From: Treponema sp.
GTDB taxonomy: Bacteria; Spirochaetota; Spirochaetia; Treponematales; Treponemataceae
Direction of reading: 5' to 3'
DNA: 64,000 nucleotides
NCBI GenBank assembly: GCA_016287815.1
Contig: JAEEWW010000004.1
Location: 1 to 64,000 of the forward strand
Made by a program: the position numbers and the translations under genes. Below, one piece after another: positions 15,054 to 58,601 of the stretch (position 1 is its first letter; each line of letters begins with the position of its first letter). Under the pieces are notes generated by a model, which saw only the letters and a list, made by a program, of their open reading frames with translations, made no database searches and was not told the DNA's origin.

Positions 15054-15072
15054 GAAAATACACTTAAAAGTG

Positions 15073-16254: not shown

Positions 16255-16283
16255 CATTATCTCCTATAAAACTCCGAGTCAGC

Positions 16284-17828: not shown

Positions 17829-17854
17829 GGGACCCCATCCTTTCTTTTCAAACT

Positions 17855-17890
17855 GAAAAAAGGCAAAACGGACATGAGCCCGTTTTGCCT
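17855..17890 (-). terminator. Intra-operon attenuator between chvE and mmsA
   Basis: AGGCAAAACGG (17861-17871) pairs with CCGTTTTGCCT (17880-17890), followed on the minus strand by six T. Partial termination here would give more binding protein than ATPase and permease, as is common in such operons. Confidence 0.75.
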
Positions 17891-17910
17891 GTAATCACTT
17901 ATTAGCTTAA

Positions 17911-18987
17911 CTATTTAAGTTCTGATTCTTTGTAGTATCCAGAATCGATAAGAAGTGATTTGTAGTTGTCCTTTGTTCCGAATACTGGTTCACAAAGGTA
18001 TGAAGGGATAACTCCTGTTCCGTTATCATATGTTTTTGTATCGTTTACAGGTGGGTTAGCTCCCTTACAAAGAGCGTCAACCATTTCTACAACTTTTGCA
18101 GCAAGAGTACGTGTATCTTTGAAGATAGACATAGCCTGTGTTCCTGCAATCATGTTCTTTACAGATGTGATATCACAGTCCTGACCTGTTACTACAGGGA
18201 AGTTAGCAGCTGTGTATCCTGCACCTTTAAGAGCGTTTGTTACACCCTGTGCTGTAGAGTCGTTAGAGCAGTATACAGCATCAAGTTTTGTTCCTTTTGG
18301 ACCATATTTGTTTGATGTAACAAGGTTTTCCATACGTTTCTGAGCTTCTTCTGTTGACCAGTTCAATGTAGCAGCCTGTGCTTTAGCTGTCTGTCCGGAA
18401 GGACATACGATAACACCACTGTCAAGATATGGTTTTAAGATGTCCATTGCACCACCAAAGAAGAAGTTGATGTTGTTGTCGCCCGGGTCACCTGTGAAGA
18501 ATTCCATGTTTACAGGATTTGATTTAGAGCGTGATTTAAGTCCTAATGCTTCTACAAGGTAGTTACCCTGAATTGTTCCTACTTTGTAGTTATCAAATGT
18601 AGCATAGTAAGAAACTGCATCTGTGTTCATGATAAGGCGGTCATAAGCGATAACTTTAATGCCTTTGCTTTTTGCTGAGTCAAGACAGTTCTTAAGAGAG
18701 AAACCATCAATAGCAGCAATAACGAGAACTTTGCAGTTTCCTGTAATCATATTCTCAATGTGTGAAACCTGTGTTGGAATATCATTACCAGCGTACTGCA
18801 GGTCAACTTTGTAACCAGCTTTTTCAAGCTGTTCCTTCATGTTGGCACCGTCCTGATTCCAGCGCTGAAGGTCTTTAGTTGGCATTGAAACGCCTACTTT
18901 TACAGAACTGCCGGAATCTTTGTTTCCACCGGCAAATACTGAAGCTGCAAGTAAAGCAGCCATTACAATAGAAACGATTTTTTTCAT
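17911..18987 (-). CDS. chvE: Periplasmic multiple-monosaccharide-binding protein (ChvE type)
   Basis: This 358-residue protein has a signal peptide (MKKIVSIVMAALLAASVFAG) with no lipobox cysteine, so it is probably free in the periplasm. The mature part begins VKVGVSMPTKDLQRWNQDG and carries IAYDRLIMNTDAVSYYATFDN and GQDCDITSVKNMIAGTQ, closely resembling ChvE/XylF. It delivers xylose, glucose, galactose or arabinose-type sugars to the permease. AGGAGG precedes ATG 18987. The leader contains a 17-bp palindrome and a GC-rich inverted repeat. Confidence 0.92.
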   Translation of the reverse strand: MKKIVSIVMAALLAASVFAGGNKDSGSSVKVGVSMPTKDLQRWNQDGANMKEQLEKAGYKVDLQYAGNDIPTQVSHIENMITGNCKVLVIAAIDGFSLKNCLDSAKSKGIKVIAYDRLIMNTDAVSYYATFDNYKVGTIQGNYLVEALGLKSRSKSNPVNMEFFTGDPGDNNINFFFGGAMDILKPYLDSGVIVCPSGQTAKAQAATLNWSTEEAQKRMENLVTSNKYGPKGTKLDAVYCSNDSTAQGVTNALKGAGYTAANFPVVTGQDCDITSVKNMIAGTQAMSIFKDTRTLAAKVVEMVDALCKGANPPVNDTKTYDNGTGVIPSYLCEPVFGTKDNYKSLLIDSGYYKESELK

Positions 18988-42719: not shown

Positions 42720-44309
42720 ATGATTACAATTGATTTTAGCAGCCGCGGAACAACGGGCTTATGCGATTTTTTAATTTCTTCAATAAAAGAAATGATTATT
42801 TCAGGAAAAATTAAATCTAACGAAAAACTGCCGAGTAAACGTGCGCTTGCCGAGCATCTTGGCGTAAGCGTGATCACCGTGCAAAACGCCTATGCCCAGC
42901 TGATTTGTGAAGGTTACATTTATTCGATTGAAAAAAAAGGATTTTATGCCACGGAACTAAATTTTCTGCCGCTAAATCATTCTGGAATTTCTTCTAAACT
43001 GAAGGCGCGGCCGCAGGCCGCGCCGGACAGTGTGTCTTTTATGGCATCGGAAAAAAATAAAGCAGAATCAGGCACTCAAGATTTTTCTGAAAAACCTTTT
43101 CTTAACGGTACGAAAGAATTATTTGTTGATTTTACAAGCAATTCAACTTCCGCAGATAAATTTCCTTTTTCTTTATGGGCACGCATAATGCGCGAAGTTT
43201 TAAACCGAAAAGATGAAAAGCTTTTAAGCCGCAGTTCAATTAAAGGTGTTTATGAACTTCGAAAAGCAATTGCAAAACATTTAAACGATTTTCGCGGTAT
43301 GAACATAAATCCTGAACAAATCATAATAGGGGCGGGGACGGAATCGCTTTATTCACTTCTTGTGCAGTTTTTAGGAAGAAACAACATCTACGCTGTAGAA
43401 AATCCCGGCTATCACAAGGTATTGGAAGTTTTTCACCTTAACGGTACTGAATGTATTCCTTTAAAAATGGATTCTTCCGGGATCAGTATGGAACATCTAA
43501 TAGAATCAAACGCAAATATCGTTCATGTTTCGCCGGCGCATCATTTTCCAACTGGAATAATAATGCCTGTTAAACGGCGCTCAGAGCTTCTTTCATGGGC
43601 TGAAGGCGGAAAAAACCGTTTTATTATAGAAGATGACTACGACAGTGAATTCCGCTTTAACGGGAAACCGCTTGCAACCTTGCAAAGTTCTGACAGCAAT
43701 TCAAAAGTAATTTATATGAACACTTTTTCAAAAACGCTGTCGCCTTCGTTTCGTATAAGTTACATGGTTTTACCCGAAAATCTTGTAAGCGGATTTGAAA
43801 AAAAACTCGGCTTTTATTCGTGTCAGGTTAGTTCTTTTGAACAGTTCACCCTGGCAAAGTTTATTGAAGAAGGTCATTATGAAAAACATATAAACAAAAT
43901 GAAAAACTTCTATCGCGGAATAAGAAATGATTTTATAAATGCACTAAAAAAATCAAAACTTTCTTCAATATCTGAAATTGAAGAAGAAGATTCAGGCCTT
44001 CATTTTATTCTTAATATAAAATCAGCTTTTTCACCGGAAGAATTAAAAAAACGGCTTTTGCAAAAAGGAATAAATATTGCCTTGTTAAATGATTATTATT
44101 ACGGAAGCACCAGAAAAACAATTTATGCAAACGCTACTGAAAAAACGGCTGGAGCAGGTAACACCGCTTTGGTCAGTTCTGAATTTGAGTGCGCAGCCAT
44201 AGAAAAAACAGATTCTGCCCACGCGGCCTTTGTCGTAAATTATTCAGCCTTAAAAAAAGAAAAAATTGAAAAAGCAATTGAATTGATCTATGAAGCCGCC
44301 GTTAAATAA
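42720..44309 (+). CDS. MocR-family regulator (GntR helix-turn-helix fused to aminotransferase)
   Basis: This 529-residue protein starts with a GntR-type winged helix (about residues 8-75, KLPSKRALAEHLGVSVITVQNAYAQLICEGYIYS). The rest is a class I aminotransferase fold with the PLP-binding Lys338 in NTFSKTLSPSFRISYM and EDDYDSEFRF before it. MocR proteins sense PLP or an amino compound and regulate neighbouring genes, so the divergent MATE gene is the likely target. The linker contains a GC-rich palindrome (43004-43024) coding for KARPQAAPD. A near-C-terminal segment (ATEKTAGAGNTALVSSE) appears to be an insert. Confidence 0.92.
   Translation: MITIDFSSRGTTGLCDFLISSIKEMIISGKIKSNEKLPSKRALAEHLGVSVITVQNAYAQLICEGYIYSIEKKGFYATELNFLPLNHSGISSKLKARPQAAPDSVSFMASEKNKAESGTQDFSEKPFLNGTKELFVDFTSNSTSADKFPFSLWARIMREVLNRKDEKLLSRSSIKGVYELRKAIAKHLNDFRGMNINPEQIIIGAGTESLYSLLVQFLGRNNIYAVENPGYHKVLEVFHLNGTECIPLKMDSSGISMEHLIESNANIVHVSPAHHFPTGIIMPVKRRSELLSWAEGGKNRFIIEDDYDSEFRFNGKPLATLQSSDSNSKVIYMNTFSKTLSPSFRISYMVLPENLVSGFEKKLGFYSCQVSSFEQFTLAKFIEEGHYEKHINKMKNFYRGIRNDFINALKKSKLSSISEIEEEDSGLHFILNIKSAFSPEELKKRLLQKGINIALLNDYYYGSTRKTIYANATEKTAGAGNTALVSSEFECAAIEKTDSAHAAFVVNYSALKKEKIEKAIELIYEAAVK
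43004..43024. repeat. GC-rich 21-bp palindrome inside the MocR coding sequence
   Basis: GGCGCGGCC, GCA, GGCCGCGCC: a perfect hairpin of pure GC in an otherwise AT-rich gene, in the linker between the DNA-binding and aminotransferase domains. It reads in frame and may be an in-gene palindromic element. Confidence 0.6.
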
Positions 44310-44526
44310 CATCGAGCATTTCGCGCAGAAAGTGGTTTTCGATTTTTGCATTTAGAAGCAGCTCTTTTATTGAATAATATTTTACACCTTCGTACAAAAG
44401 TCCAAAATCTATATAATCTCTGCCGGAACTGTCTTTCCCGAAGGTAAGGTTATAGCTTTTGCCGTTATATTTGAACTCATACGGAGTTTTTGTATCAATC
44501 AGCATCTGAAAATCATTTTTTGTCAT
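44302..44526 (-). CDS. Small hypothetical protein
   Basis: A 74-residue protein opening MTKNDFQMLIDTKTPYEF, with short strands (KYNGKSYNLTFGKDSSGRDYIDFG) then a helix. No family recognised and no signal peptide. AGGTG lies before ATG 44526 and the coding pattern looks real. Its last eight bases overlap the convergent MocR gene. Confidence 0.55.
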   Translation of the reverse strand: MTKNDFQMLIDTKTPYEFKYNGKSYNLTFGKDSSGRDYIDFGLLYEGVKYYSIKELLLNAKIENHFLREMLDVI

Positions 44527-44589
44527 AGCACACCTGCGGATAATCTTACATAAACAATTCTAAACTGACAAGATAATAAAAATCCCTAC

Positions 44590-44875
44590 TGCAATAAAAG
44601 ACTTCATTCATTGCAATGAAAGACTTCATACATAGCAATAAATGATTTCGTACATTGCAATAAATGATTTCGTACATTGCAATGAAAGACTTCGTACATT
44701 GCAATAAATGATTTCGTACATTGCAATGAAAGACTTCATATATTGCAATGAAAATAAAATTTTATTGCAACAACTGTACACATTTATTGCTACAAAAGCA
44801 TACATTTATTGCCACAAATGCGCACGTTTGTTACTGCAAATTTATTTTTATGTTGCAATCAATTTCTATCTGAAC
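44590..44875. repeat. Array with 22-bp periodicity (13 periods), with an inverted half
   Basis: Seven good forward units (44590-44743) with core GCAATAAATGATTTCGTACA or GCAATGAAAGACTTCGTACA, then a palindromic hinge (44744-44765). Three more units in the opposite orientation follow, sharing CATTTATTGC (the complement of GCAATAAATG) and kept in the same 22-base phase, then degenerate copies up to 44875. It fills most of the gap before hsdR. Another partial copy lies at 57421-57449, on the far side of the island. Confidence 0.8.
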
Positions 44876-44936
44876 TTTGCACGAAGCTTAAAAAGAGGTT
44901 TTGCATGAATATTCAAACACTTTTTTAGTTATACTA

Positions 44937-44945
44937 TGCTATAAT
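44937..44945 (+). promoter_or_regulatory. Extended -10 promoter of hsdR
   Basis: TGCTATAAT with no good -35 box, 21 bases before ATG 44967; AAGGA provides the ribosome site. The same element precedes the abi gene at 51293-51301. Confidence 0.45.
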
Positions 44946-44966
44946 GGTAAAAAAGGACTGAAATAA

Positions 44967-47900
44967 ATGGCTTCATCTTTCGACTATTTTGAAAAAGAAT
45001 TTCCCGCATTTGCAAAACTTGGTAAATTAGCAGAATCCTATTGTGAGTCAGATCCGAATGGTGCTTTATATAAACTCCGAAAAATTGGTGAAACCATTAC
45101 AGCGCTTATTTATCAGTATGATAATATTGTCTGCCCAACGGGAAATGTAAATGATGTAAGTCAGGTTACAAGAATCAATACGCTTCAAGATTACGGTATA
45201 ATAAATTCATTGCTTGCAAAATCCTTTACTCGTCTTAGGAAAATAGGAAACGAAGCAGTTCATGAAGACTTGGATTCTTCAATTTTAGTTAGAGAACTTC
45301 TTCCAATTGCATACAGCCTTTGTTTATGGTTCGCTGGAACTTATGGTACGAACAAAAATCCTGAATATAAAGAATATGTAACTCCCGAAAAACTAAATGC
45401 AGTTGCAAAAAAGAAATTCATCGTTAGAATAAAGAAGCCATCCGATTTTACTCCTCAAGAAAAACAGGACGATGAATCAGAAAATCAACTTATAGAACAG
45501 GCAACTGTAGCTGCAGCACAAGTTCCAAAAATCCTGATATCTGAGCGCAAAAATCGTTCCTATAAAGCCAACCGTGCGCGTCCTCTTACAGAAGCAGAAA
45601 CCCGTGAACTTATTGATGATCAGCTTCGTAAGGTTGGCTGGGAATGTAATACAAATATTCTTAATCAGAAACTACACGGCACAAAACCTCAGAAAGGCCA
45701 TAACATGGCCATTGCAGAATGGCAGACAGATTCAAAAATATACAATCACGGCTATGCAGATTATGCTCTTTTTATTGGAGAAAAACTTGTTGGACTAATC
45801 GAAGCAAAAGCTGAACACAAAGACATTCCTTGTGTAATAGACGGGCAGTGCAAAGAATATGCAAGCCTTATAAAAGATTCAGATCAGGATTATGTACAGG
45901 GAAAGTGGGGTGCAAACGGAGAATACAAAGTTCCTTTTGCCTTTGCAACAAACGGTCGTCCATATCTTAAGCAGCTGGAAACAAAATCCGGCATCTGGTT
46001 CATAAATTTTACAAAACCAACAGAAGCTCCAAAAGCATTACAGGGCTGGATGAGCCCAATTGGTATTGAAGAACTTCTTGAACGTAATTCTGAAATATTC
46101 AAACAAGAATATGAAAAGCTTGATGATGAAGAATTCTTGCGAAACAAAGATGGCTTGAGTCTTCGTGATTATCAGATAGAAGCAATTCACGCAGTTGATA
46201 AAGCCCTGGAAGAAGGCCGAAAGAATATCCTTCTTGCCATGGCAACAGGAACCGGAAAGACCCGAACATTTCTTGCGTTGATTTACCGCTTCTTAAAGAG
46301 TAAACGTTTTAAGCGAATCCTGCTTCTGGTAGACCGCAATTCTCTTGGAAAGCAGGCATTCGATGTATTTAGCGAAGTAAAACTCGATCAGCTTCAGCCT
46401 CTTACAGACATATACAATATAAAAAATCTAGATGAAAAGATAATTGATAAAGAAACAAAACTCCAGATTTCTACTGTTCAGGGAATGGTTCAGCGCATCT
46501 TGTACAACGATGGCGACCGAATGCCTGCTGTAACTGATTTTGATTTAGTGATTATTGATGAAGCTCACCGCGGTTATATTCTCGATAAAGAAATGGCAGA
46601 TGAAGAATTATTCTTCCGTGACCAGCTGGATTATCAAAGTAAGTACCGCAATATTATTGAATACTTTGATGCAGTTAGAATCGGTTTTACAGCCACACCT
46701 GCATTACAGACAACTCAGATATTTGGCGAACCAGTTTATACCTATTCATACCGCCGCGCGGTTTACGAAGGTTATCTTTGCGACCATGATGTTCCTTATA
46801 TTATTTCTACAGATAAAACTCGTAACGGAATTCACTTTGAAGCAGGAACTCTTGTAGATAAATACGACCCGAATAATAAGACTGTTGTAAAAGCCGAAGT
46901 AGAGCCTGATGAGGTTGATTACGATGTAGAAAAGTTCAACAGAGATATCATAACACGCCCATTCAATGAAGCAGTTTTTTCTGAGCTTTTTGAAAACGGG
47001 TATCTTACTCTGGATGCCCCAGAAACGCACGGTAAAACTTTGATATTTGCAGTGAACGATGAACACGCAGATATGATTGTTGACATCATCAAAAAGATTT
47101 GTGAAAAGAACGAACTTCCTGAGCAAGCTGTGATGAAAATTACAGGAAGCGCAGGCGGTGGAAATCAAAAGAAAATTGAAGACCTTATAAAACAGTTTAA
47201 GAATGAAACCTTTCCAAGTGTTGTAGTAACTGTAGACTTGCTTACTACTGGAATAGATGTTCCTTCAATTTCAAATCTTGTTTTTATGAGATGTATTAAG
47301 TCACGCATTTTGTTTGAACAAATGCTGGGACGTGCTACACGACGCTGTCCTGAAATCAATAAGACTCATTTTAATATTTATGACCCGGCCGGAGTTTATG
47401 ACCATATCAAAGATAAAATTGATATGCAGCCGGTAGTTCAACAACCAAAGATTAAAATGACAGAGCTTATTGATGCAATGGCTTCTATCCCCGACACGGA
47501 AGCAAGAATAATTCAATATCAAATTGAACAGCTTCTGGCAAAAGTAAATCGCAAAAAGAATAATCTTACTCCAGAAGCAATTTCAAATTTCAAAATACTC
47601 ACAAAAGAACCGAGCATAGAATCCTATCTCAAAAAGATAGAAGAGTTAAATCCAATCGAGGCTAAAAAGCAGATTATCGCAGAAAGAAAAGTATTCGAAC
47701 TTCTGGAAAATGATAAAGCCGAGTTGCGCAAAATAATCATAGATAACAGGCCAGATTCAGATGTTCAGATAAGCCGCGGATACGGCAAGCACAATCTGCA
47801 GCAGCCGGAAGATTACATCGAAGAATTTACAAATTATATAAAAGAAAACCGTAACAAAATTGAAGCATTAAAAATTGTCTGCACACGGCCTTCAGCTCTT

Positions 47901-48311
47901 ACCCGTGAAGCCTTAAAAAATCTTGCTGTTATTCTTGCAAATGAAGGTTATGATTTAACAAGCCTTAACACTGCATGGAACAAGGTAACTAACGCTGACC
48001 TTGCTGTAGATATAATCAGCATAATCAGAACCTGCGCAAATGGTTCTCCTGTGCAGAGCCACGAAGAAAGAATTAAAAAGGCCATCACAAAACTCAAGGC
48101 AAATCATAATTTTGGCCCGGTTGAACTTGGCTGGCTTAATGTAATAGAAGCAAATCTTTTGCAGGAAAATATACTTGAAGAATCAGTCTTTGATAATGAA
48201 GTTATTTTCCGTAATAAAGGCGGCTTTAAGCGCATAGATAAAGATTTTAAGTTCCAGCTCCGTGCATTGATTGCTGAATTGAATAAATACCTGTATGAAG
48301 ATGTTGCGTGA
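44967..48311 (+). CDS. hsdR: Type I restriction enzyme, R subunit
   Basis: An 1114-residue translocase-nuclease. It starts with a DUF4145-like domain (about residues 1-130), then the HsdR nuclease with D265, E279 and K281 in the PD-ExK pattern (ADYALFIGEKLVGLIEAK). The helicase core has Walker A MATGTGKT (425-432) and DEAH (531-534) with TATPAL and the C-terminal helicase block LLTTGIDVPSISNL. It ends in an EcoEI-type C-terminal domain. It cuts unmethylated DNA with HsdM and HsdS encoded downstream. First gene of the island. Confidence 0.94.
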   Translation: MASSFDYFEKEFPAFAKLGKLAESYCESDPNGALYKLRKIGETITALIYQYDNIVCPTGNVNDVSQVTRINTLQDYGIINSLLAKSFTRLRKIGNEAVHEDLDSSILVRELLPIAYSLCLWFAGTYGTNKNPEYKEYVTPEKLNAVAKKKFIVRIKKPSDFTPQEKQDDESENQLIEQATVAAAQVPKILISERKNRSYKANRARPLTEAETRELIDDQLRKVGWECNTNILNQKLHGTKPQKGHNMAIAEWQTDSKIYNHGYADYALFIGEKLVGLIEAKAEHKDIPCVIDGQCKEYASLIKDSDQDYVQGKWGANGEYKVPFAFATNGRPYLKQLETKSGIWFINFTKPTEAPKALQGWMSPIGIEELLERNSEIFKQEYEKLDDEEFLRNKDGLSLRDYQIEAIHAVDKALEEGRKNILLAMATGTGKTRTFLALIYRFLKSKRFKRILLLVDRNSLGKQAFDVFSEVKLDQLQPLTDIYNIKNLDEKIIDKETKLQISTVQGMVQRILYNDGDRMPAVTDFDLVIIDEAHRGYILDKEMADEELFFRDQLDYQSKYRNIIEYFDAVRIGFTATPALQTTQIFGEPVYTYSYRRAVYEGYLCDHDVPYIISTDKTRNGIHFEAGTLVDKYDPNNKTVVKAEVEPDEVDYDVEKFNRDIITRPFNEAVFSELFENGYLTLDAPETHGKTLIFAVNDEHADMIVDIIKKICEKNELPEQAVMKITGSAGGGNQKKIEDLIKQFKNETFPSVVVTVDLLTTGIDVPSISNLVFMRCIKSRILFEQMLGRATRRCPEINKTHFNIYDPAGVYDHIKDKIDMQPVVQQPKIKMTELIDAMASIPDTEARIIQYQIEQLLAKVNRKKNNLTPEAISNFKILTKEPSIESYLKKIEELNPIEAKKQIIAERKVFELLENDKAELRKIIIDNRPDSDVQISRGYGKHNLQQPEDYIEEFTNYIKENRNKIEALKIVCTRPSALTREALKNLAVILANEGYDLTSLNTAWNKVTNADLAVDIISIIRTCANGSPVQSHEERIKKAITKLKANHNFGPVELGWLNVIEANLLQENILEESVFDNEVIFRNKGGFKRIDKDFKFQLRALIAELNKYLYEDVA

Positions 48312-48383
48312 TAATTACTAATGAATAATTGATAATTGAGAGTGAATATTATTCGGACGTGCGTGAAGTTTTAAATAGAATAA

Positions 48384-48417
48384 AACAAGTTTTTGGAATT
48401 AATTCCAAAAACTTGTT
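48384..48417. terminator. Perfect 34-bp palindrome after hsdR (possible terminator or operator)
   Basis: AACAAGTTTTTGGAATT and its complement form a 17+17 perfect palindrome centred on AATTAATT, between hsdR and the DUF4143 gene. It overlaps the edge of the -35 box of the next promoter at 48416. No long T-run follows, so a regulatory or structural role is as likely as termination. Confidence 0.5.
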
Positions 48418-48444
48418 GATTTTGCATACTTTTGGGATTATTAT
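48416..48444 (+). promoter_or_regulatory. Promoter of the DUF4143 ATPase gene, leaderless geometry
   Basis: TTGATT (48416-48421), 17 bases and TATTAT (48439-48444), then six bases and ATG 48451, without a ribosome site. Confidence 0.45.
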
Positions 48445-48450
48445 TTAGCA

Positions 48451-49674
48451 ATGGAATCTTTACTGACAATAGATAACAAAAGAATTTTTCGTACTGAATA
48501 TCTTGAACGTCTCAGAAATTTAAAGCATAAAAAGCTCATAAAAATTGTTACAGGAATCAGGCGTTGTGGAAAGTCTACAGTACTTGAAATGTTCCGTGAT
48601 GAGCTCCTTTCTGATGGCGTAGATAAAGAACAGATTATTTTCATAAACTTCGAAGACTACGAAAACAAAGTGCTTCGTAATCCAGATTCACTTTATGAGT
48701 ACATCAAAAGCCATCTTACAAAAAAAATGAATTATATCTTTCTTGATGAAATTCAACGAGTAGAAAACTTTCCGGAAGTTGTAGACAGCCTTTATATAAA
48801 AGACAATGTGGATTTGTATCTTACCGGTTCCAATTCTTCTTTGCTTTCAAGTGAGATTGCAACTCTTATAAGCGGCCGTTATGTAGAAATAAAAATGCTT
48901 CCGTTTTCTTTTAATGAATTTGTTACTGCAACTAATCAAAATAAAAATCTCTCTGCGGCATACAGACAATATATAGAAACAAGTTCATTTCCATACGTTC
49001 TTGAGCTTTTGGAAACACCCCAGGAAATAAATGCTTACCTTGAAGGAATCTATAGCACAATCCTGGTAAAAGACATTATCGACAGAAAGAAAATTGCAGA
49101 TACTCTTGTATTAAAAAGTGTAACTCAGTTTTTATTTGATAATATTGGATCGGAGCTTTCATCAAAAAAAATTGCAGACACGCTTACTTCCGGCGGAAGA
49201 AAATCAGATTCCAAAACAATAGAAAAATATGTTAGTTCTCTTGAAGAAAGTTTTATTGTTTATCGTGCTGGGCGTTACAACATCAAGGGAAAAGAATATC
49301 TTAAGAGCCTTGAAAAATATTATGTCGCAGATATAGGTCTCCGTAATTTTATGCTCGGAAAAAAAGCGATGGACGTAGGTCATGTTCTCGAAAATATAAT
49401 TTATCTTGAGCTTATCCGCCGCGGGTATTCAGTTTATGTTGGAAAAATCGATGATATGGAAATTGATTTTGTAGCCCAGAACGATAAGGGAAATACTTAT
49501 ATTCAGGTTTCTGCATCCGTAAGGGATGAAAACACCCTTCAGCGCGAACTTCGTCCTCTTAAAGCTGTAAAAGACAATTATCCAAAATTACTTCTAACAC
49601 TTGATGATGATCCGGATGGCGACTATGAAGGAATAATCCGGAAAAACGCTTTAGACTGGTTAATGAGTAATTGA
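48451..49674 (+). CDS. AAA_14/DUF4143 family ATPase
   Basis: A 407-residue protein with Walker A GIRRCGKST (about residues 35-43) and Walker B YIFLDEIQRVENF in an AAA_14 domain, followed by a DUF4143 domain (ADIGLRNFMLGKK, IDFVAQNDKGNTYIQVSAS; the last part resembles a degenerate nuclease-like fold). Such proteins are common, often outside operons, and their role is unclear. Its place between hsdR and hsdM, with its own leaderless promoter, suggests an independently acquired gene or an accessory to the R-M system. Confidence 0.85.
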   Translation: MESLLTIDNKRIFRTEYLERLRNLKHKKLIKIVTGIRRCGKSTVLEMFRDELLSDGVDKEQIIFINFEDYENKVLRNPDSLYEYIKSHLTKKMNYIFLDEIQRVENFPEVVDSLYIKDNVDLYLTGSNSSLLSSEIATLISGRYVEIKMLPFSFNEFVTATNQNKNLSAAYRQYIETSSFPYVLELLETPQEINAYLEGIYSTILVKDIIDRKKIADTLVLKSVTQFLFDNIGSELSSKKIADTLTSGGRKSDSKTIEKYVSSLEESFIVYRAGRYNIKGKEYLKSLEKYYVADIGLRNFMLGKKAMDVGHVLENIIYLELIRRGYSVYVGKIDDMEIDFVAQNDKGNTYIQVSASVRDENTLQRELRPLKAVKDNYPKLLLTLDDDPDGDYEGIIRKNALDWLMSN

Positions 49675-49706
49675 TAATTTGCAAATTAAGAATGGAGAAT
49701 TAAAAA

Positions 49707-51122
49707 ATGACCACACAAGAAATCGTAAGCAAACTTTGGAACCTGTGCAATGTACTTCGCGACGATGGAATTACATATCAAAATTATTTAAACGAACTCA
49801 CATATATTCTGTTCTTAAAAATGTGCTCAGAGATTCCCGGGGCAGAAGAACAGATACCTGAAAAATATCGCTGGGCAAAGCTTGTAAAAAAGGACGGAAT
49901 CGCACTCAAAGATTTTTACAAAGAACTCCTTGACCACCTTGGAACAAAAACAAGCGGTCGTGTACTTGAGATTTATGCCGGTAGTCAGACTTCAATCGAC
50001 GAGCCAAAGAATCTTGAAAAAATCATAAAATCAATAGATGCGCTAGACTGGTTTAGCGCAAAAGACGAAGGACTGGGCGACCTTTACGAAGGCCTGCTTG
50101 AAAAAAACGCCACAGAAAAAAAGAGCGGAGCAGGGCAGTATTTTACGCCGCGAGTTTTAATCGATGTAATGACAGAGCTTGTAAAACCTCAGCTTGGCGA
50201 AAAATGTAACGACCCGGCCTGTGGAACTTTTGGCTTTATGATTAGCGCCCACAAATATGTGCTGGACCACAACGACAACCTCATTCACTGTACAAGCGAG
50301 CAGCAGGAGTTTGAAGACAGCCAGGCCTTTACCGGAACAGAACTTGTTCACGACACACATCGCCTTGCACTTATGAACGCCTATCTTCACGACATAAATG
50401 GAAAAATCACACTGGGCGACACCTTAAGTTCAATCGGAATGGAAATGAAAGGCTACGATGTAGTTCTTACAAATCCTCCGTTTGGTACTAAAAAAGGCGG
50501 TGAGCGCGCCCTTCGCACAGACCTTACTTACACCACAAGCAACAAACAGCTCAACTTTTTGCAGCACATCTACCGCTCATTAAAAGCAGACGGAAAAGCC
50601 AGAGCCGCAGTAGTTCTCCCGGATAACGTTCTTTTTGCAGACGGCGACGGCGAAAAAATCCGCGTAGACTTAATGAACAAATGCAATCTGCACACAGTCC
50701 TCCGCCTGCCAACCGGAATCTTTTATGCCCAGGGCGTAAAAACAAACGTCCTCTTTTTTACCCGCGGCAAAACAGACGAAAACAACACAAAAGAAGTCTG
50801 GTTCTACGACCTTCGTACCAATATGCCAAGCTTCGGCAAAACAAATCCTCTCAAAAAAGAACACTTTGCCGACTTCATCAAAGCCTACACCGCTGAAGAT
50901 AGAGCTTCTGTAAAAGACGAACGCTGGAACTGTTTTACCCGCGATCAGATTTCCGCCAAAGGAAACAGCCTTGACCTTGGCCTTATCCGCGACGAAAGCA
51001 TCCTGGACTACGAAGACCTCCCCGACCCAATCGAAAGCGCCCAGGACTGCATAGACCAGCTTGAAATGGCCGCAGACCTCATCAAAGAAGTTGTCCGCGA
51101 ACTTCAGAAGACGGAGAAATGA
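49707..51122 (+). CDS. hsdM: Type I restriction-modification DNA methyltransferase, M subunit
   Basis: A 471-residue N6-adenine methyltransferase with an N-terminal helical domain (TTQEIVSKLWNLCNVLRDDGITYQNYLNELTYILFLK), GQYFTPRVLIDVM, the catalytic NPPF (residues 256-259) and SAM motif I DPACGTFGFM (169-178). The usual CGTGG or CGTAG is CGTFG here. A GGAG site precedes ATG 49707. With HsdS it methylates the recognition sequence. The 3' half of the gene is distinctly richer in GC than hsdR. Confidence 0.94.
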   Translation: MTTQEIVSKLWNLCNVLRDDGITYQNYLNELTYILFLKMCSEIPGAEEQIPEKYRWAKLVKKDGIALKDFYKELLDHLGTKTSGRVLEIYAGSQTSIDEPKNLEKIIKSIDALDWFSAKDEGLGDLYEGLLEKNATEKKSGAGQYFTPRVLIDVMTELVKPQLGEKCNDPACGTFGFMISAHKYVLDHNDNLIHCTSEQQEFEDSQAFTGTELVHDTHRLALMNAYLHDINGKITLGDTLSSIGMEMKGYDVVLTNPPFGTKKGGERALRTDLTYTTSNKQLNFLQHIYRSLKADGKARAAVVLPDNVLFADGDGEKIRVDLMNKCNLHTVLRLPTGIFYAQGVKTNVLFFTRGKTDENNTKEVWFYDLRTNMPSFGKTNPLKKEHFADFIKAYTAEDRASVKDERWNCFTRDQISAKGNSLDLGLIRDESILDYEDLPDPIESAQDCIDQLEMAADLIKEVVRELQKTEK

Positions 51123-51292
51123 TATTTTTAGCTACTATACTCGCAAAAATTAAGAAAAAACTTGATTTTAGCGACTGTAACTGATAAAGGATAGATTTAA
51201 TTTGTAGTAACGGCGTTTAAAAAAAAGACTGCCACGATCCCTGGCACTGCAAAGCAGGAGAAAGGATTACGTGGCTTACATTTTACAATATA

Positions 51293-51301
51293 TGCTATAA
51301 T
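51293..51301 (+). promoter_or_regulatory. Extended -10 promoter of the abi gene
   Basis: TGCTATAAT, identical to that before hsdR, 20 bases before ATG 51322, followed by GAGGGTAAA and AAGGA. It gives the gene its own transcription within the R-M locus. Confidence 0.45.
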
Positions 51302-51321
51302 GAGGGTAAAGTCAAGGATAG

Positions 51322-51996
51322 ATGATGGACAAGAATACTTTTGAAAGCTTAAAAAAGTCAATCTCAGAAGAAAGGCTTGCTGTATACCGTGCAGACGGCG
51401 TTGATGATACGACAGCAATTGCAAGATATATTTATAATATTGCCCTCTGTAAAAGCCTCTATCCGCTCATTAATATTTTCGAGGTTACGCTTCGGAACAG
51501 CATCGACAAGGCTCTGGAAAAATATTTTAACCAACCGGACTGGAATAATGTAATTCAACTAAATCAGACAGAATTAATGATGATAAATGATGCTATGCTC
51601 AAAATAAAACGTCAGGGCAAAAAATACAGTCACGGCCGGCTCATAGCAGAGCTTACACTTGGATTTTGGGTAGCTCTTATGGGAAGAAAATACAACAATC
51701 AGGGATTTCAGTTTGCTGTTATTAAAAACTGCCTGCACGGATGTCCTACAAATCAAAAAAGTTCTGGCGCTATTCAAAAGAACCTTTCCGAAATCAGATT
51801 TTTAAGAAACAGAATTGCACATCACGAACGCATTTCTCACTGGAAAGACTTGAAGCAAAAGCATGATTTGATTCTGGATTTTATCAAATGGCTGAATCCA
51901 GACATGTACACCATAGCCTCTGAAAAAGACACTTTTAATTACATTTATACAGATGGCGTAAAACCGTTTGTCGCTTTTGTGAATGATAAATTATAG
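51322..51996 (+). CDS. Abi_2 family abortive-infection protein (HEPN RNase-like)
   Basis: A 224-residue protein of the Abi_2 (AbiD/AbiF-like) group. The HEPN ribonuclease motif R-x4-H is present as R162 NRIA H167 (FLRNRIAHHERISHW), after LINIFEVTLRNSIDKAL and LIAELTLGFWVALM. These proteins cause growth arrest or death on phage infection, in some cases by RNA cleavage. Start at the first of two adjacent ATG codons, with AAGGA upstream. Nested between hsdM and hsdS with its own promoter, as cargo genes often are in type I loci. Confidence 0.88.
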   Translation: MMDKNTFESLKKSISEERLAVYRADGVDDTTAIARYIYNIALCKSLYPLINIFEVTLRNSIDKALEKYFNQPDWNNVIQLNQTELMMINDAMLKIKRQGKKYSHGRLIAELTLGFWVALMGRKYNNQGFQFAVIKNCLHGCPTNQKSSGAIQKNLSEIRFLRNRIAHHERISHWKDLKQKHDLILDFIKWLNPDMYTIASEKDTFNYIYTDGVKPFVAFVNDKL

Positions 51997-52048
51997 ACAA
52001 TTGTATGGTAACGAAAAATGATTAATTGAAAATGGAGAACAAAATATA

Positions 52049-53308
52049 ATGGCAAAGAAAGCTGAGATAGAACAGACAGTAATAGAAGCACCATATGAAC
52101 TGCCGGAAGGTTGGAAGTGGTGTCGGTTGGGGGAAGTTGCTGATTGGGGATCTGGAGGAACTCCATCAAGAAAAAATCCTGAATATTATAATGGTTCGAT
52201 TCCATGGATAAAAACAGGTGAACTTAATGAATCTTATATTTTTGATTCCGAAGAAAAAATTTCGGAAGAAGCTATAAATCATTCAAGTGCGAAATTATTT
52301 CCAAAAGAAACTGTAGTTTTGGCTATGTATGGTGCAACAATAGGAAAAACCGCCATATTTGGGATAGATGCTTCAACAAACCAGGCATGTGCTTGTGCAA
52401 TTTGTCATAAAGATTTAGATAATCATTATTTATTCAATTTTCTAAAATCTAAAAAAGATTATTTCATTTATAATGCAAAAGGTGGAGCACAGCCAAATAT
52501 TTCACAAGAAATAATAAAAGATACCGTTATTCCTCTTCCTCCAACACTCGCCGAACAACAGCGTATCGTAAACCGCATAGAATCCATGTTCACAAAACTG
52601 GATGAGGCAAAAGAAAAAGGCCAAAACGTAGTCGACAGCTTCGAAACCCGCAAAGCCTCAATTTTGCACAAAGCCTTCACCGGCGAACTCACCGCCAACT
52701 GGCGCAAAGAAAACGGAGTTGCTGATGAGAGTTGGGAAGAAAAGACGATCGGGGAATGTTTTACCCATACAACAGGGAAGGCTCTTAAAAAAGATAATCA
52801 GAACGGAACACCTCGTGAATATATCACAACTTCAAATCTGTATTGGGATAGATTCGATTTTTCTGAAATTCGCACAATGTATTTTACAGATGATGAACTT
52901 GAAAAATGTACGGCTAAAAAAGGTGATTTGCTTCTTTGCAATGGTGGTGATGTTGGTCGGGCTGCTATTTGGAACTTTGATTATGATATTTGCTTGCAAA
53001 ATCATGTTTCAAAATTGCGAAATAAAGGAAATGTTGAAACAAGATTTTTTCTTTATTATTTCATGCTTTCTAAGATAAAAGGAAATGTAAACGGCAAGGG
53101 TATTGGCATTTCTTCGCTTTCTGCAAAGGATTTACTTGCTATGTCAATCAATCTTCCCACCATTCCCGAACAACAAGAAATTGTCCGCATCCTCGACTCC
53201 GTATTAGAAAAAGAATCCCGTGCCAAAGAAGCCGCCCAAACCGTCCTAGACCAAATCGCCTTGCTAAAAAAAACAATATTGGCTAGGGCGTTTAGAGGAG
53301 AGTTGTAA
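52049..53308 (+). CDS. hsdS: Type I restriction-modification specificity subunit
   Basis: A 419-residue protein with two target-recognition domains (about residues 14-150 and 225-350) and two conserved helical spacers (LPPTLAEQQRIVNRIESMFTKLD and LPTIPEQQEIVRILDSVLEKE, each ending in ILHKAFTGEL or ILARAFRGEL). The two domains each recognise half of a split DNA site. Composition changes sharply: spacers are GC-rich and recognition domains AT-rich, as expected from domain exchange. GGAG lies before ATG 52049. Confidence 0.93.
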   Translation: MAKKAEIEQTVIEAPYELPEGWKWCRLGEVADWGSGGTPSRKNPEYYNGSIPWIKTGELNESYIFDSEEKISEEAINHSSAKLFPKETVVLAMYGATIGKTAIFGIDASTNQACACAICHKDLDNHYLFNFLKSKKDYFIYNAKGGAQPNISQEIIKDTVIPLPPTLAEQQRIVNRIESMFTKLDEAKEKGQNVVDSFETRKASILHKAFTGELTANWRKENGVADESWEEKTIGECFTHTTGKALKKDNQNGTPREYITTSNLYWDRFDFSEIRTMYFTDDELEKCTAKKGDLLLCNGGDVGRAAIWNFDYDICLQNHVSKLRNKGNVETRFFLYYFMLSKIKGNVNGKGIGISSLSAKDLLAMSINLPTIPEQQEIVRILDSVLEKESRAKEAAQTVLDQIALLKKTILARAFRGEL

Positions 53309-53326
53309 AAAATCAAGAGACTTTCT

Positions 53327-56300
53327 ATGAAAAAATCAAAAAAGAAAAAACAGAAAACACAATTAAGAAGCCTCTCTGAAATTGATGTATCTAGAACTGG
53401 TGGACGAAATGCTCTTTTAGGCTATAACTATCAGCGGTTATATTCTTGTTTTTTGTTTTTAACTGAACTCAACAACAATAATAAAATTCGATGTGAAGGA
53501 ATTGAAGATATTGATATATTAGATTTAGTTTCTAAGACTAGTACATATATTCAAATAAAATTTTCAAAAGAACGTCAAACTGCGAGTTTTATGGACGGAA
53601 TTCTAAAAAACTTTCTAGAAGTTTTCTTTGTAAAACCAAAATGCTCTTTTAAGCTTGTTTATGATTTTACAGTTGCTGATGGGAATTTGAAAAAACTTTT
53701 TGAAAATAATCTTGATGAGACATCTAAAGAATTCTGGCTTATAAAATTAAATAATATTTGTATTGAAAATCAGTGGAAAACTACAGAGAGTTCTTTAGAA
53801 CAGTTTTTAACTTTACTTAAATTTGAAAATTATCCACAAGATAAGTTGGAACAATTAATTACGAAAGAATTAATAAAACGATGTAATCTTAATACGTCTA
53901 TACAGAATTTATATATAAATGCACTTAATTTTTTCTGTTTAACGGCAATGAAAAATAGATATACAGTAACTTTCAAAAGTCTTTCAGATTTGTTTGTTTC
54001 TATTCAAAATGATATTGAAAAAGGATTACATAATCCAGCTCTTTGTTATTTTTCTCAAATTTCTTTTAAAATTGATTCTTCTACAACAAGACAAATAGAT
54101 TATTATGAAGGGAAAAAAGCCGTTTTATCTGATATTTTATATGAACTTCCTGTTAGAAGAACAGAGTGTGAGAAAGAAATTGAAGACTCAATAGATAAAA
54201 ATACTATTACAGTAATAAAGGCATCTAGTGGGCAAGGGAAAACAACACTTGCATGGCAAGTTTGCTATAATCTAAGAAACGATTTTTCATGTTACCAACT
54301 ATCAAAATGTGATGAGCAAGATGATATATATTATATAACAGATTTTATAAAAACAAGAATTTCACTTGGAAACAAGATTCTATTATTGTTAGATAATTTA
54401 AATGTACGATTGAAATTATGGAATGAACTTGTTCAGCGATTGGAACAAGAGGTCTCAATAAATTATAAAGTTTTAGTGACTACTCGTGAAGATGATTGGT
54501 ATTCATTTTCAGGAGAACTTTATAATGTAAAATCATTAAATGTTGTTAGTATACTGCTCAATGAACATTCAGCGGAACAGATTTTTTATAAATTACAGAA
54601 AAATAATATGATTCATTCTTCTGTTAAAGATTGGCATGGTGCATGGGAGCAAATTCAAAATAGAAAACTATTGATAGAATACATATACCTTCTTACTCAT
54701 GGACAAATGCTTGCAGATCGTATTGGCGAACAAATAAAAAAAATGGGAAATAGTGCTAATGGTAAACTTGTTTGCGAAATGCTTAGATACATTTACTTTG
54801 CAGATGTTTGTGGCATCCAACTGCAAACGAATAAGTTGCTATCAAATATCCGAAATGAAAGCACATCAGATTTATCAGAAGTATTAAAATCACTTGATAA
54901 GGAGTTTTTAATCAAAATAGATACTGCAGATGGAAAAAAATATATAGATGGATTGCATCCTGTACGTTCTCAACATATTATTGAAAGGCTTCATGAATTT
55001 ATTTCAATAGATGAAACGGTTCTACAAGTTATAAAAATCGCGGATAAAGAGTCTCTTAATATATTATCATCTTTTTTGCCTTTGTATATTGGAGACAAAG
55101 AATTGTTCTATAAGCGCTTGGTAGATATTCTTGATAATGATTGTCTATCTTATAATTCAGTTTTTGAGGGAGTCTTTTCTGGAACCGCTATCAACTATTA
55201 TAGAAAACATAAAGATTTATTTGATGAAGCAAATCAGCATTATGGTCTAGAATTGTTTTGCGTATCAACTAATCCTTTTATATCAGGCAACAATTTTATT
55301 GATCATCTTTGTTCTATACAAAAAAATGAAAATTTAGAAGCATTAAAAATTTTATGTCAAAAGCCCGAAAAACTTGATATAGAAAAAACAGACATTTATA
55401 TTTTTTCTAGAGAAACTTACAGGAAACTCCATAATGTTTCATTGATTGAAGATATTGATTCTTTTATAAAAATTGCAGAACATCTATTTTTTATAGATAA
55501 AGAATTTATTCTGGCAGATAAACTCGATTTAAAACAGGAATGGAATAATAGAGAGCATTTATCATTGACAACAGTTGAATTACTTTTTTATATTTCATTT
55601 CTTGAAACTCCAACTGTATATTATTCTGTTACTAATTTATATAAGAAAGAAATTTTCTCATACATAAAAGAAAAAACAAATTCTTTGAAATTATATGAAA
55701 ATGATAAAAATATATATGTAGAATATATTGTTTGTGAAACGAATCTGGAAACTATAAATGATGAAAGTGTAAATCGATTAAAAACTATTGCTAGGATATT
55801 ACCAATTTATGAACATTATTGTTCCAATGTATGTAAACCAAAAATCACTTTGTTTTCAGCATATGAACTTCCAAATTTAGGAGTAAAAGCAATTCCATTG
55901 GATACATTTTCAAAGATATTCAAATCAGATTATGTTTCGTTATGGGATAAATCTATTTTATCGAATTATGAAGCAGCAAGTGTTTATGAATGGTTAAGAT
56001 TTTGGATTAATACAAGACAAACTATTATTACGAATTTACAAAATTGTTATAAACTGCTTTGTTATAGGTTGAAGTGCGAATCAGGTAATAGTTTTATTAA
56101 CAATATTTTATCAACAAGATTAGAAATAAATAACAATTTAGGAATGTCTTTTTATTTTCCACATTCCAAAAGACCTTTTGAAAAGACTATTGATATTGCT
56201 GAGAATTTTGATAAAAAGGCAAGAAATTATTTTTCTAGTATAAATAATTTTATAAATCAGTTTTCAGATTTGCTCTGTCATAAAGAAAATCAAAAATTAG

Positions 56301-57202
56301 CATTCTTAAATCTTTGTAATTCATGTAATAATCTAAGTTCAATGCAGGAATGGTTTGTAAAGTTTTGTGATGTACAAAAAATCTTTATTAATGAAAATGC
56401 AGAATTATGTAAAGATGAGATAAATATTTTGAAAAAAATAAGAGATGTTGCAGAATTCTATCTCGAACAAAAGCCTTCAGAATATTTTAGCACCACATCC
56501 GTTTTATCATATCATGACAAAAAAGAAATAAAATTCCTTAAACAAATTGAAGAATGTTTATTTTCTCTCAAAGCGAATTTTTCTGTAGTTTTTCCAAATT
56601 CTTTTATAAATGATGGAGTTTTGAAAATATATCCATTAGTTGTAAATGAATTTGATTTTAATGATGAAGAAAGGATGAATTTGTTTACAATCTGTTTATC
56701 TTCCCTTGCATCACAGATAGAATCACAAATTTCTTTTGTGCAAATTGCTTTTATTAATAATGATGGTGTTATAACATTTGGACTTTCATTTTCATTTGAA
56801 TGCATTCAAAAATTAAGCAAGATACTAAATGGTAAAGAGGTCGCAAACATTGAAAGGCCGCCTTTCCCTCTTTCACCTGACAGTTTTGACAATCAATTTA
56901 TATCATGTTTTGATATTCAACTTAAAATACAAGAAAAAAAAGATGAATCTTTACCTTTTGTAAAAATTCTTTCTAAACTATGGGAGTATTCAAAATACAG
57001 AGAAAATCTAAAAGGGGACAGTGATATAAAATATTTACAGTCAAAACTTACAAATCTAATAACTGATATAAATTTTTTATCTACTGATTTGGAGAATTCA
57101 CAAATACAAATTGTACAAGATTTATGTGATAAAGTTTATAGTGGCATGATTTTTGATGACAGTAAATATAATGAATATTTTGAGAAGTATTATGATATAT
57201 AA
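53327..57202 (+). CDS. Cap4/DUF4297-like nuclease fused to a STAND-type NTPase (putative antiphage defence protein)
   Basis: A 1291-residue protein. After a lysine-rich start, residues 30-80 read ALLGYNYQRLYSCFLFL, CEGIEDIDIL (E57, E60, D61, D63) and YIQIKFS (Q76, K78). This is the pattern of the Cap4 dsDNA-endonuclease family (DUF4297), which has a PD-(D/E)xK-like core. A P-loop NTPase follows: ASSGQGKTT (299-307), Walker B ILLLLDNL with D356, and VLVTTRED, in STAND/NACHT style. Residues about 550-1291 are helical with no repeats I can name and could be the sensor. Nuclease-STAND-sensor is the layout of Avs-type phage sensors. The gene is much more AT-rich than its neighbours and lies 18 bases after hsdS. 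Exact family and trigger are not known. Confidence 0.7.
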   Translation: MKKSKKKKQKTQLRSLSEIDVSRTGGRNALLGYNYQRLYSCFLFLTELNNNNKIRCEGIEDIDILDLVSKTSTYIQIKFSKERQTASFMDGILKNFLEVFFVKPKCSFKLVYDFTVADGNLKKLFENNLDETSKEFWLIKLNNICIENQWKTTESSLEQFLTLLKFENYPQDKLEQLITKELIKRCNLNTSIQNLYINALNFFCLTAMKNRYTVTFKSLSDLFVSIQNDIEKGLHNPALCYFSQISFKIDSSTTRQIDYYEGKKAVLSDILYELPVRRTECEKEIEDSIDKNTITVIKASSGQGKTTLAWQVCYNLRNDFSCYQLSKCDEQDDIYYITDFIKTRISLGNKILLLLDNLNVRLKLWNELVQRLEQEVSINYKVLVTTREDDWYSFSGELYNVKSLNVVSILLNEHSAEQIFYKLQKNNMIHSSVKDWHGAWEQIQNRKLLIEYIYLLTHGQMLADRIGEQIKKMGNSANGKLVCEMLRYIYFADVCGIQLQTNKLLSNIRNESTSDLSEVLKSLDKEFLIKIDTADGKKYIDGLHPVRSQHIIERLHEFISIDETVLQVIKIADKESLNILSSFLPLYIGDKELFYKRLVDILDNDCLSYNSVFEGVFSGTAINYYRKHKDLFDEANQHYGLELFCVSTNPFISGNNFIDHLCSIQKNENLEALKILCQKPEKLDIEKTDIYIFSRETYRKLHNVSLIEDIDSFIKIAEHLFFIDKEFILADKLDLKQEWNNREHLSLTTVELLFYISFLETPTVYYSVTNLYKKEIFSYIKEKTNSLKLYENDKNIYVEYIVCETNLETINDESVNRLKTIARILPIYEHYCSNVCKPKITLFSAYELPNLGVKAIPLDTFSKIFKSDYVSLWDKSILSNYEAASVYEWLRFWINTRQTIITNLQNCYKLLCYRLKCESGNSFINNILSTRLEINNNLGMSFYFPHSKRPFEKTIDIAENFDKKARNYFSSINNFINQFSDLLCHKENQKLAFLNLCNSCNNLSSMQEWFVKFCDVQKIFINENAELCKDEINILKKIRDVAEFYLEQKPSEYFSTTSVLSYHDKKEIKFLKQIEECLFSLKANFSVVFPNSFINDGVLKIYPLVVNEFDFNDEERMNLFTICLSSLASQIESQISFVQIAFINNDGVITFGLSFSFECIQKLSKILNGKEVANIERPPFPLSPDSFDNQFISCFDIQLKIQEKKDESLPFVKILSKLWEYSKYRENLKGDSDIKYLQSKLTNLITDINFLSTDLENSQIQIVQDLCDKVYSGMIFDDSKYNEYFEKYYDI

Positions 57203-57301
57203 AAACTTTTTTGTTCTTATTAAATTTTTTATGATAGAGGAGAAATGTATTTCGGTTAATGATACTAAAAAAAAGCAAGTAATATTAATCCAGGAATAAA
57301 T

Positions 57302-57466
57302 GTGAAATTATTTCCTTATTGTTTTTTGATAAACTGGAGAAAATGGGCTATTTCCGAAAAATACAGCGTACACGACTATACAGTCGAACAAATCTTAAAC
57401 TTCATCAAATCATATGAGATTGCACTAAATGATTTCATACATTGCAATGCTCAAGCTCCTATATGA
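57302..57466 (+). pseudogene. Remnant of a DUF262 (GmrSD-type) gene, 54 codons
   Basis: From GTG 57302 (AGGA upstream) the frame reads a short lead, then EKYSVHDYTVEQILNFIKSYEIA. This matches the start of DUF262/GmrS proteins, which normally continues IPEIQRPFVW. Here it changes to LNDFIHCNA exactly at the 22-bp repeat copy (57421) and stops at 57466. It is probably the 5' end of a lost GmrSD-type restriction gene, cut when the repeat was inserted or recombined. The first 20 codons may be out of frame with the original start. Confidence 0.5.
57421..57449 (+). repeat. Outlying copy of the 22-bp island repeat
   Basis: TGCACTAAATGATTTCATAC followed by ATTGCAATG: one full unit plus the start of the next, 12.7 kb from the main array and on the other side of the restriction/defence genes. 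Confidence 0.7.
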
Positions 57467-57513
57467 AATTATTTTTTTTAATCTGCAATATAATTTATTA
57501 TCAGGAGCAACGA

Positions 57514-57756
57514 ATGGGTATAAAACTGATTGCAGAAATTATCGGCGGGTTTGCGGCATTGTTTAGAGTTACGTCTTTGTTTTCAAAATCACCGGATAGA
57601 ATAAAACTTTTGGTTACAGTCGGAAACTTTTTGTTTATGGTGCAGGGGATAATTAATAAAAGTCCGTCTTTGTTTATAAGCAATTTTGCCTGTTTGCTGG
57701 CTTATCTGATTCAGTACATTAACGGAAAGCGGAAGATGGAATCTTCCGCCGTTTAA
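57514..57756 (+). CDS. Small YgjV-like inner-membrane protein
   Basis: An 80-residue protein with three hydrophobic segments (about residues 5-18, 29-47 and 55-70). The layout GGFAALFRVTSLFSKSPDRIKLLVTVGNFLFMVQGIINKSPSLFISN resembles the YgjV family of unknown function. ATG 57514 is supported by AGGAG six bases upstream; a longer frame from 57442 begins in the repeat copy and is rejected. Confidence 0.6.
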   Translation: MGIKLIAEIIGGFAALFRVTSLFSKSPDRIKLLVTVGNFLFMVQGIINKSPSLFISNFACLLAYLIQYINGKRKMESSAV

Positions 57757-57767
57757 GCATTTGGCTG

Positions 57768-58142
57768 CTACTTTACGACAGCAACTGCTTCAATTTCTAC
57801 AAGTGCGCCTTTAGGAAGGGCTGCAACTTCAAAACAGCTGCGGGCAGGTTTTGAAACAAAGTATTTTTCGTATACTGCGTTGAATGCTGCAAAATCTGCA
57901 ATGTTGGCTAAAAAACATGTTGTTTTTACAACATTGGAAAAATCTGTTCCTGCTGCCTTTAAAATTTCTCCAAGATTTTTTATTGCCTGTTCAGCCTGAG
58001 CTTCTATGGAAGAACCTTCAAGTGCACCTGTTGCAGGGTTAAGCGGAATCTGGCCTGAAGTATATAAAAATCCATTTGCAAGAATAGCCTGCGAATAAGG
58101 TCCTATTGCCGCAGGGGCTGTTTTTGTTTCAATTGTTTTCAT
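57768..58142 (-). CDS. ridA: RidA family 2-iminobutanoate/2-iminopropanoate deaminase
   Basis: A 124-residue protein with the whole RidA signature: [49 protein letters not shown] and [23 protein letters not shown] with the substrate-binding Arg. It clears reactive enamine/imine products of PLP enzymes such as threonine dehydratase. GAGGAAA precedes ATG 58142. Confidence 0.94.
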
Positions 58143-58199
58143 TTTGTTTTCCTCACACTATATTGTATTGATTATTTTAAAATCTTAAAATCTGCTTAT

Positions 58200-58601
58200 T
58201 TACATAAAACAAAAAGTCTGATTATCAATCTGCTCCATACCAAGACTTTTCCAAAAAACTTCGGCATTGGCGTTTTTTGCATCCAGAAAAACTTTTTTAG
58301 CTCCGGTTTCAATCATGAGCCGTTCCATGGCATAGGTACCTATTCCAAGTCCCCGGAAATTTTTATTTACTTCAAAAAGCTTAATTGAAAGAGTATCACC
58401 TATGAGCTGATAAACACAAACCGCTTTTAGAAAGTCGGTTGATGGAGTGTAATCAAAAACCATGTACGAGCACCCTTGTAAAATATAAGAAAATTCTCCG
58501 TTTCTGGCATAAGATTTCAAAAGCGGAAAATTATCCCATCCTTCAAGCATCATGTATGATTCAAAAATATCACAATCAAGAATTCGGTAGTTAAGATTCA
58601 T
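58200..58601 (-). CDS. GNAT family N-acetyltransferase
   Basis: A 133-residue protein with the acetyl-CoA motif NKNFRGLGIGTYAMERLM and AEVFWKSLGM near the end. The substrate is unknown; these short forms often modify small amines or ribosomal protein termini. ATG 58601 lies eight bases after a minus-strand TATAAT and has no ribosome site. Confidence 0.8.
   Translation of the reverse strand: MNLNYRILDCDIFESYMMLEGWDNFPLLKSYARNGEFSYILQGCSYMVFDYTPSTDFLKAVCVYQLIGDTLSIKLFEVNKNFRGLGIGTYAMERLMIETGAKKVFLDAKNANAEVFWKSLGMEQIDNQTFCFM

Follow-up and report, generated by a model that had tools for sequence, protein, structure and literature searches.

A Cap4-STAND protein in an exchangeable slot behind hsdS of a Treponema type I restriction-modification locus, likely working like an Avs protein

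Avs (AVAST) proteins carry an effector, a STAND switch and a sensor, in that order, in one polypeptide, and they are the described systems closest to P0001, a protein encoded behind hsdS of a type I restriction-modification (R-M) locus in a 64,000-nucleotide stretch of Treponema sp. DNA (contig JAEEWW010000004.1; "the window" refers to this whole stretch). Avs1 to Avs4 carry nuclease effectors (PMC12931631), activation consists of protein binding and oligomerisation (PMC12198126, PMC12931631), and the nuclease domains of Avs3 are paired through the STAND part (PMC12198126). An Avast type II system lies close to hsdM and hsdS in Staphylococcus aureus (PMC12829572), and the nuclease-ATPase PrrC is encoded inside a type I locus (PMC12707154, PMC3874168). 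The intact open reading frame of P0001 (53327-57202, plus strand) encodes 1291 amino acids with a Cap4-like nuclease domain, a STAND core and a long C-terminal part that we propose to be the sensor, and we consider it fairly probable that P0001 is a single-protein, Avs-like anti-phage system acting as an infection-activated DNA nuclease.

With the first 248 residues scanned in isolation, the profile PF14130 (Cap4_nuclease) matches residues 25-206 at 29.9 bits (E 8e-7), above its curated cut-off of 26.2, and in a search of the whole genome the match in P0001 (28.4 bits) is the sole Cap4 match. We set aside the missing Cap4 hit in the whole-protein Pfam scan as a limit of that scan, since PF14130 appears with the N-terminal domain alone. 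The sequence contains the motifs E57, E60-D61, D63 and Q76-I-K78, and on an alignment of 12 full-length family members, to which all statements of invariance refer, E57, G58, D61, Q76 and K78 are the same in all 12, with nuclease-domain identity falling as low as 13%. Because these residues are kept even at that distance, we read the pattern as a retained PD-(D/E)xK active site. PF14130 is also listed for seven of nine other relatives scanned (five at E < 0.001), and one family member matches the PADLOC model of LmuA (E 1e-10). In VIA-align comparisons of an AlphaFold model of residues 1-565 (predicted local distance difference test, pLDDT, 72.5; alignment of four sequences), the nearest solved folds for residues 27-234 are HerA-DUF4297 (Z 16.4, 189 residues aligned, 2.9 Å) and LmuA (Z 13.8, 200 aligned, 4.1 Å); Cap4 itself reaches Z 13.4 (183 aligned, 3.8 Å). 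The ATPase of HerA-DUF4297 and LmuA is a separate partner protein, whereas P0001 has a fused STAND switch.

For that switch, PF25199 (nSTAND_NTPase5) matches residues 258-393 with 45 bits (E 1.3e-11, cut-off 34), and the Walker B residue D356 and TTRED are found in the sequence. All 12 members keep G302, G304, K305, R387, H544 and R547 unchanged; the last two belong to the conserved H544-xx-R of GLHPVRS, which closes the winged-helix part and which presumably corresponds to the histidine motif that it resembles in other STAND proteins. Foldseek returns EfAvs5 and Avs4 as the best matches of the 1-565 model, and the VIA-align match to the STAND part of EfAvs5 (Z 16.0, 305 aligned, 8.7 Å) reaches model residue 565. 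AAA+ proteins also score Z 12.6-14 against the N-terminal model, and the STAND match is therefore one of the general fold. Identification as mad8 (PADLOC, E 2e-3) was rejected, the match being confined to the P-loop region. A preliminary description, made from the letters of the window alone, had named the Cap4 motifs, the P-loop, D356 and TTRED, all of which are present at the positions it gave; its nuclease within residues 1-100 is recovered by a PF14130 match above cut-off, and its STAND-type NTPase by PF25199.

The C-terminal part, residues 557-1291 (about 735 amino acids), has no match in Pfam, NCBIfam or PADLOC; a profile built from six of its sequences retrieves no PDB chain at E 10, and a PDB sequence search with the entire protein gave nothing useful, in line with the long motif-free region described earlier. 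Its model (pLDDT 64.9) is mainly helical, apart from alpha/beta structure around residues 1085-1170. Fold searches stayed without a match at E 0.001, and Z did not exceed 7.0, which at a model pLDDT of about 65 is not evidence for a new fold. The idea that this part is unlike TPR-type sensors stands insofar as no TPR or Sel1 Pfam match appears at E 1; the same model is too weak for a positive distinction. No DNA-binding domain was detected by Pfam or PDB sequence search, and when genomes of the order were searched with only the C-terminal part, no other effector fused to it and no domain swap came to light. Identity to the three closest full-length relatives is 40-42% in the nuclease, 49-59% in the NTPase and 30-32% in the C-terminal part, and conservation that is lower at the C-terminus than at the N-terminus is expected of a sensor as opposed to an effector and a switch. 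Over 489 codons of this part, compared with an 83% identical fragment from another species of the genus, the ratio of nonsynonymous to synonymous substitution rates (dN/dS) is about 0.22, which indicates purifying selection. We infer that the C-terminal part is the sensor.

With the C-terminal part in this proposed role, P0001 has the effector-STAND-sensor order of Avs proteins in a single chain. As in Avs3 (AVAST type 3, PDB 8dgc), a Cap4-like nuclease precedes a STAND core; P0001 differs in its length (1291 amino acids against 2028 in the solved Avs3 chain) and in a sensor part without detectable relation. Over the nuclease and STAND parts (model residues 23-547), VIA-align gives Z 13.9 to Avs3 with 365 residues aligned at a root-mean-square deviation of 17.7 Å; the two domains are therefore arranged differently in the model, and what both proteins have in common is the nuclease-STAND order. 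The preliminary description had taken P0001 for a new fusion, which does not hold: Avs3 already joins a Cap4-like nuclease to a STAND core, and the P0001 family occurs in several phyla. The novel parts are the sensor lineage and its recurring linkage to R-M genes.

Avs2 (NCBIfam NF041813) has a comparable length (1317 model positions), a nuclease effector and, as noted for Staphylococcus aureus, an Avast type II representative close to hsdM and hsdS; its model finds no match in the genome at E 0.001 and none to P0001 at E 1. Avs5 (EfAvs5, PDB 9jap) supplies the STAND core that is the top Foldseek match of the N-terminal half, and differs in joining a SIR2 effector to nSTAND3 where P0001 joins Cap4 to nSTAND_NTPase5. 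No close match to a known Avs family emerged, as had been anticipated, and membership in a named Avs type is not supported, because no Avs model matches; P0001 nevertheless likely works like an Avs protein. We rejected the role of a Cap4 effector of CBASS, since P0001 contains no SAVED domain and no cyclase is found among the neighbours scanned (42720-58601).

In the mechanism we favour, a STAND core with bound nucleotide would keep P0001 inactive at rest. Upon infection, a phage product would bind the variable C-terminal part, the STAND core would then exchange nucleotide and oligomerise, and oligomerisation would pair the N-terminal Cap4 PD-(D/E)xK domains (D61, Q76, K78), which would cleave DNA and halt the infection, probably at the cell's expense. 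As exchangeable cargo behind hsdS, P0001 would form a second line if restriction fails. Beyond domain identity, this scheme is drawn by analogy from Avs proteins, HerA-DUF4297 and STAND proteins, and the analogy extends to nuclease activity, oligomerisation, the nature of the trigger, cell death and phage defence; of the phage-sensing defence protein first described, the nuclease domain, the STAND core and the unrecognised C-terminal part are supported, and phage sensing is the portion supplied by comparison. Four points weigh against the scheme: D356 is not conserved in a remote subclade, as aligned; the active-site loop 58-70 is modelled poorly; no curated Avs model of PADLOC or NCBIfam matches P0001 at E 1; and the C-terminal model is of low confidence (pLDDT 65) and bears no convincing relation to Avs sensors.

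P0001 stands, as first described, at the end of a type I R-M locus, whose order is hsdR, an AAA_14/DUF4143 gene, hsdM, an Abi_2 gene, hsdS and the P0001 gene, with two additional genes thus lying between the hsd genes (Table 1). The P0001 gene begins 18 bp after the hsdS stop in the same direction, no terminator-like site was found in this gap, and the two genes are probably co-transcribed. Four other genomes of the genus carry the same locus (HsdR identity 73-93%), and in these the place behind hsdS is taken by an ORC-CDC6-like ATPase (L046), an AAA_15 gene (L047), an NB-ARC/NACHT protein (L048) or two reverse-transcriptase genes (L049). The hsdR-hsdM and hsdM-hsdS gaps vary as well, holding SLFN_AlbA, AAA_14, LPD3 or a weak Saf_2TM match. 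Compared across the five genomes, the hsd locus of the genus can be written as hsdR-x-hsdM-y-hsdS-z, where x, y and z are three exchangeable cargo slots and the P0001 gene occupies z; hsd loci that are more distant within the genus (HsdR < 50%) are mostly without such slots. Downstream of the cargo, the window and three of the four relatives have a GmrSD gene or what is left of its start, the fourth contig ending too early to show one. The reverse-transcriptase genes of L049 (4757-7865; 406 and 631 amino acids) are adjacent to each other directly after hsdS and are possibly a two-reverse-transcriptase defence system.

The P0001 gene has a GC content of 26.6% against 38.5% in its flanks, and this difference, together with the changing slot content, agrees with the earlier suggestion of an acquired, AT-rich gene; a recent acquisition is supported on these sequence grounds. 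AT-richness as a trait of the family was rejected, with genes of relatives at 33-35% GC and that of the Hymenobacter relative at 55.7%, as in its host.

Table 1. Features of the P0001 gene and its hsd locus in the window
Feature	Coordinates	Strand	Basis
hsdR	44967..48311	+	PF04851, PF08463
AAA_14/DUF4143 cargo gene, hsdR-hsdM slot	48451..49674	+	PF13173, PF13635; PADLOC PDC-S01 E 2e-156
hsdM	49707..51122	+	PF02384, PF12161
Abi_2/AbiD-like cargo gene, hsdM-hsdS slot	51322..51996	+	Pfam Abi_2 slightly under cut-off; PADLOC PD-T4-5 E 9e-17
hsdS, directly 5' of P0001 gene	52049..53308	+	PF01420
Cap4-STAND protein P0001 with proposed sensor	53327..57202	+	1291 aa; uninterrupted reading frame, relatives along whole length
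Cap4/DUF4297 nuclease domain, residues 25-206	53399..53944	+	PF14130; VIA-align Z 16.4 to HerA-DUF; E57, D61, Q76, K78 invariant 12/12
STAND nucleotide-binding domain (nSTAND_NTPase5), residues 258-395	54098..54511	+	PF25199 E 1.3e-11; EfAvs5, Avs4 structural matches
P-loop ASSGQGKTT, residues 299-307	54221..54247	+	sequence; G302, G304, K305 invariant in 12 members
Helical and winged-helix STAND part, residues 396-556, GLHPVRS motif 542-548	54512..54994	+	invariant H544, R547; S548 nearly invariant; EfAvs5 match
C-terminal part, residues 557-1291, proposed sensor	54995..57199	+	no profile/PDB match; conservation below N-terminal half; weak model
GmrSD (DUF262) gene-start remnant, downstream slot edge	57349..57426	+	86-98% DNA identity to GmrSD starts/remnants behind other hsd loci

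At the edges of the locus, 22-bp repeats (TTGCAATRAAWGAYTTCRTACA) are arrayed in tandem 5' of hsdR (44590-44774), and one copy follows the GmrSD remnant (57420-57449). This lone downstream repeat suggested an inserted island; no empty site was shown. The only other such array found in the genome, on contig C122 (4208-4864), adjoins an R-M island of EcoRII type with Vsr. In the window, a gene fragment for a YgjV-like membrane protein (57442-57756), which covers profile positions 70-153 only, lies between the hsd island and ridA, and the RidA flanks of two relatives (L050, L051) show no synteny with the window.

The family is rare, with three carriers among 394 genomes of the order, that of P0001 counted, and none of the papers found in the library searched describes it by name. 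Full-length relatives are found in the same genus (L010, 39% identity), in a Lachnospiraceae metagenome-assembled genome (L007, about 37%), on two prophage-like contigs (L014, 37%; L015, 29%), on a Hymenobacter plasmid (L002, 25%) and twice more in the phylum (L077, L078), as well as, in the form of remote members, in plasmid or phage records (L003-L006). Among viral contigs, a single-protein scan with P0001 gave nothing; alignment queries gave two loci, and separate scans with each half recovered only those two again. In one uncultured phage record (L006, 1882-8412), AAA_21/AAA_15 and HNH genes precede the gene of a Cap4-nSTAND3 protein that is shorter, at 1110 amino acids. In another genus of the phylum (L077, 8236-8700), a 154-residue gene that appears HEPN-like by eye stops 4 bp before the Cap4-STAND gene and is a possible partner.

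Two of these relatives also adjoin type I genes: in L078, the order hsdR-hsdM-hsdS is followed after 99 bp by the Cap4-STAND gene (with genes that read by eye as DUF262/GmrSD-like on its 3' side), and in L014 hsdM lies 380 bp after it. The type I linkage probably arose more than once, because the hsdM products of the window, L014 and L078 are only 27-30% identical to one another and their Cap4-STAND proteins do not form one clade in a FastTree analysis of the N-terminal half, where the window groups with L010 (node support 0.70). Such recurrence, the co-directional position of the P0001 gene behind hsdS and the precedent of PrrC would fit a protein that keeps watch on the neighbouring type I enzyme instead of sensing a structural protein of the phage. 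Loss of HsdRMS activity to an anti-restriction factor from the phage would then set it free or switch it on, in the manner of PrrC and EcoprrI. PrrC and RloC are likewise nuclease-ATPase proteins whose genes lie in type I R-M loci or close to them, and PrrC backs up restriction; they differ in being tRNA cutters and not STAND proteins. The R-M partner, however, is not constant in the family: it is a type I system, a type ISP enzyme or MmeI, and some members have none. The L010 gene comes 4.8 kb after a type ISP enzyme and directly behind LmuA/MC3/LmuB-type genes, L002 adjoins MmeI, L007 adjoins methyltransferase fragments, L015 adjoins Shedu and DUF3732 genes, and the defence neighbours of relatives include an N6-methyltransferase. 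These defence surroundings also count in favour of the Avs-like anti-phage reading. Unrelated genes, moreover, occupy the same slot in close relatives, and repeated type I linkage is no proof of functional coupling, because defence genes cluster anyway and their clustering explains adjacency without it. We therefore regard surveillance of the restriction enzyme as unlikely; if true, it would make P0001 an R-M guardian on an NLR-like plan, sharing its slot with abortive modules of unrelated kinds (other STAND-like ATPases, paired reverse transcriptases) that take one another's place. The L010 neighbourhood (114-17912) is in itself a dense defence island with the type ISP enzyme, ABC-3C/Lamassu-like genes, Cap4-STAND, two SLFN_AlbA genes and RhuM.

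LmuA and related nucleases act with DNA-sensing SMC-like partners. The match of one family member to the LmuA model, and the association of the family with DNA-cutting systems, could thus suggest that the C-terminal part responds to DNA ends, restriction products or nucleic acid instead of a phage protein, with the nuclease extending the damage; no DNA-binding domain is detected in this part, and we hold this to be rather improbable. Least probable is a role outside phage defence, as a cell-death switch on mobile islands that is directed at plasmids or competitors or linked to stress. Several relatives are carried by plasmids and prophage-like contigs, where they may act on rival elements, but repeated co-location with known anti-phage genes speaks against this role.

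The Avs-like reading of P0001 bears on how phages are recognised: Avs proteins recognise conserved phage proteins via large sensors, and with every new sensor lineage comes a possible new target of recognition. The position of P0001 behind hsdS shows how restriction operons gather second-line defences, and the same position allows a direct test of whether cargo of this kind keeps watch on the restriction enzyme.

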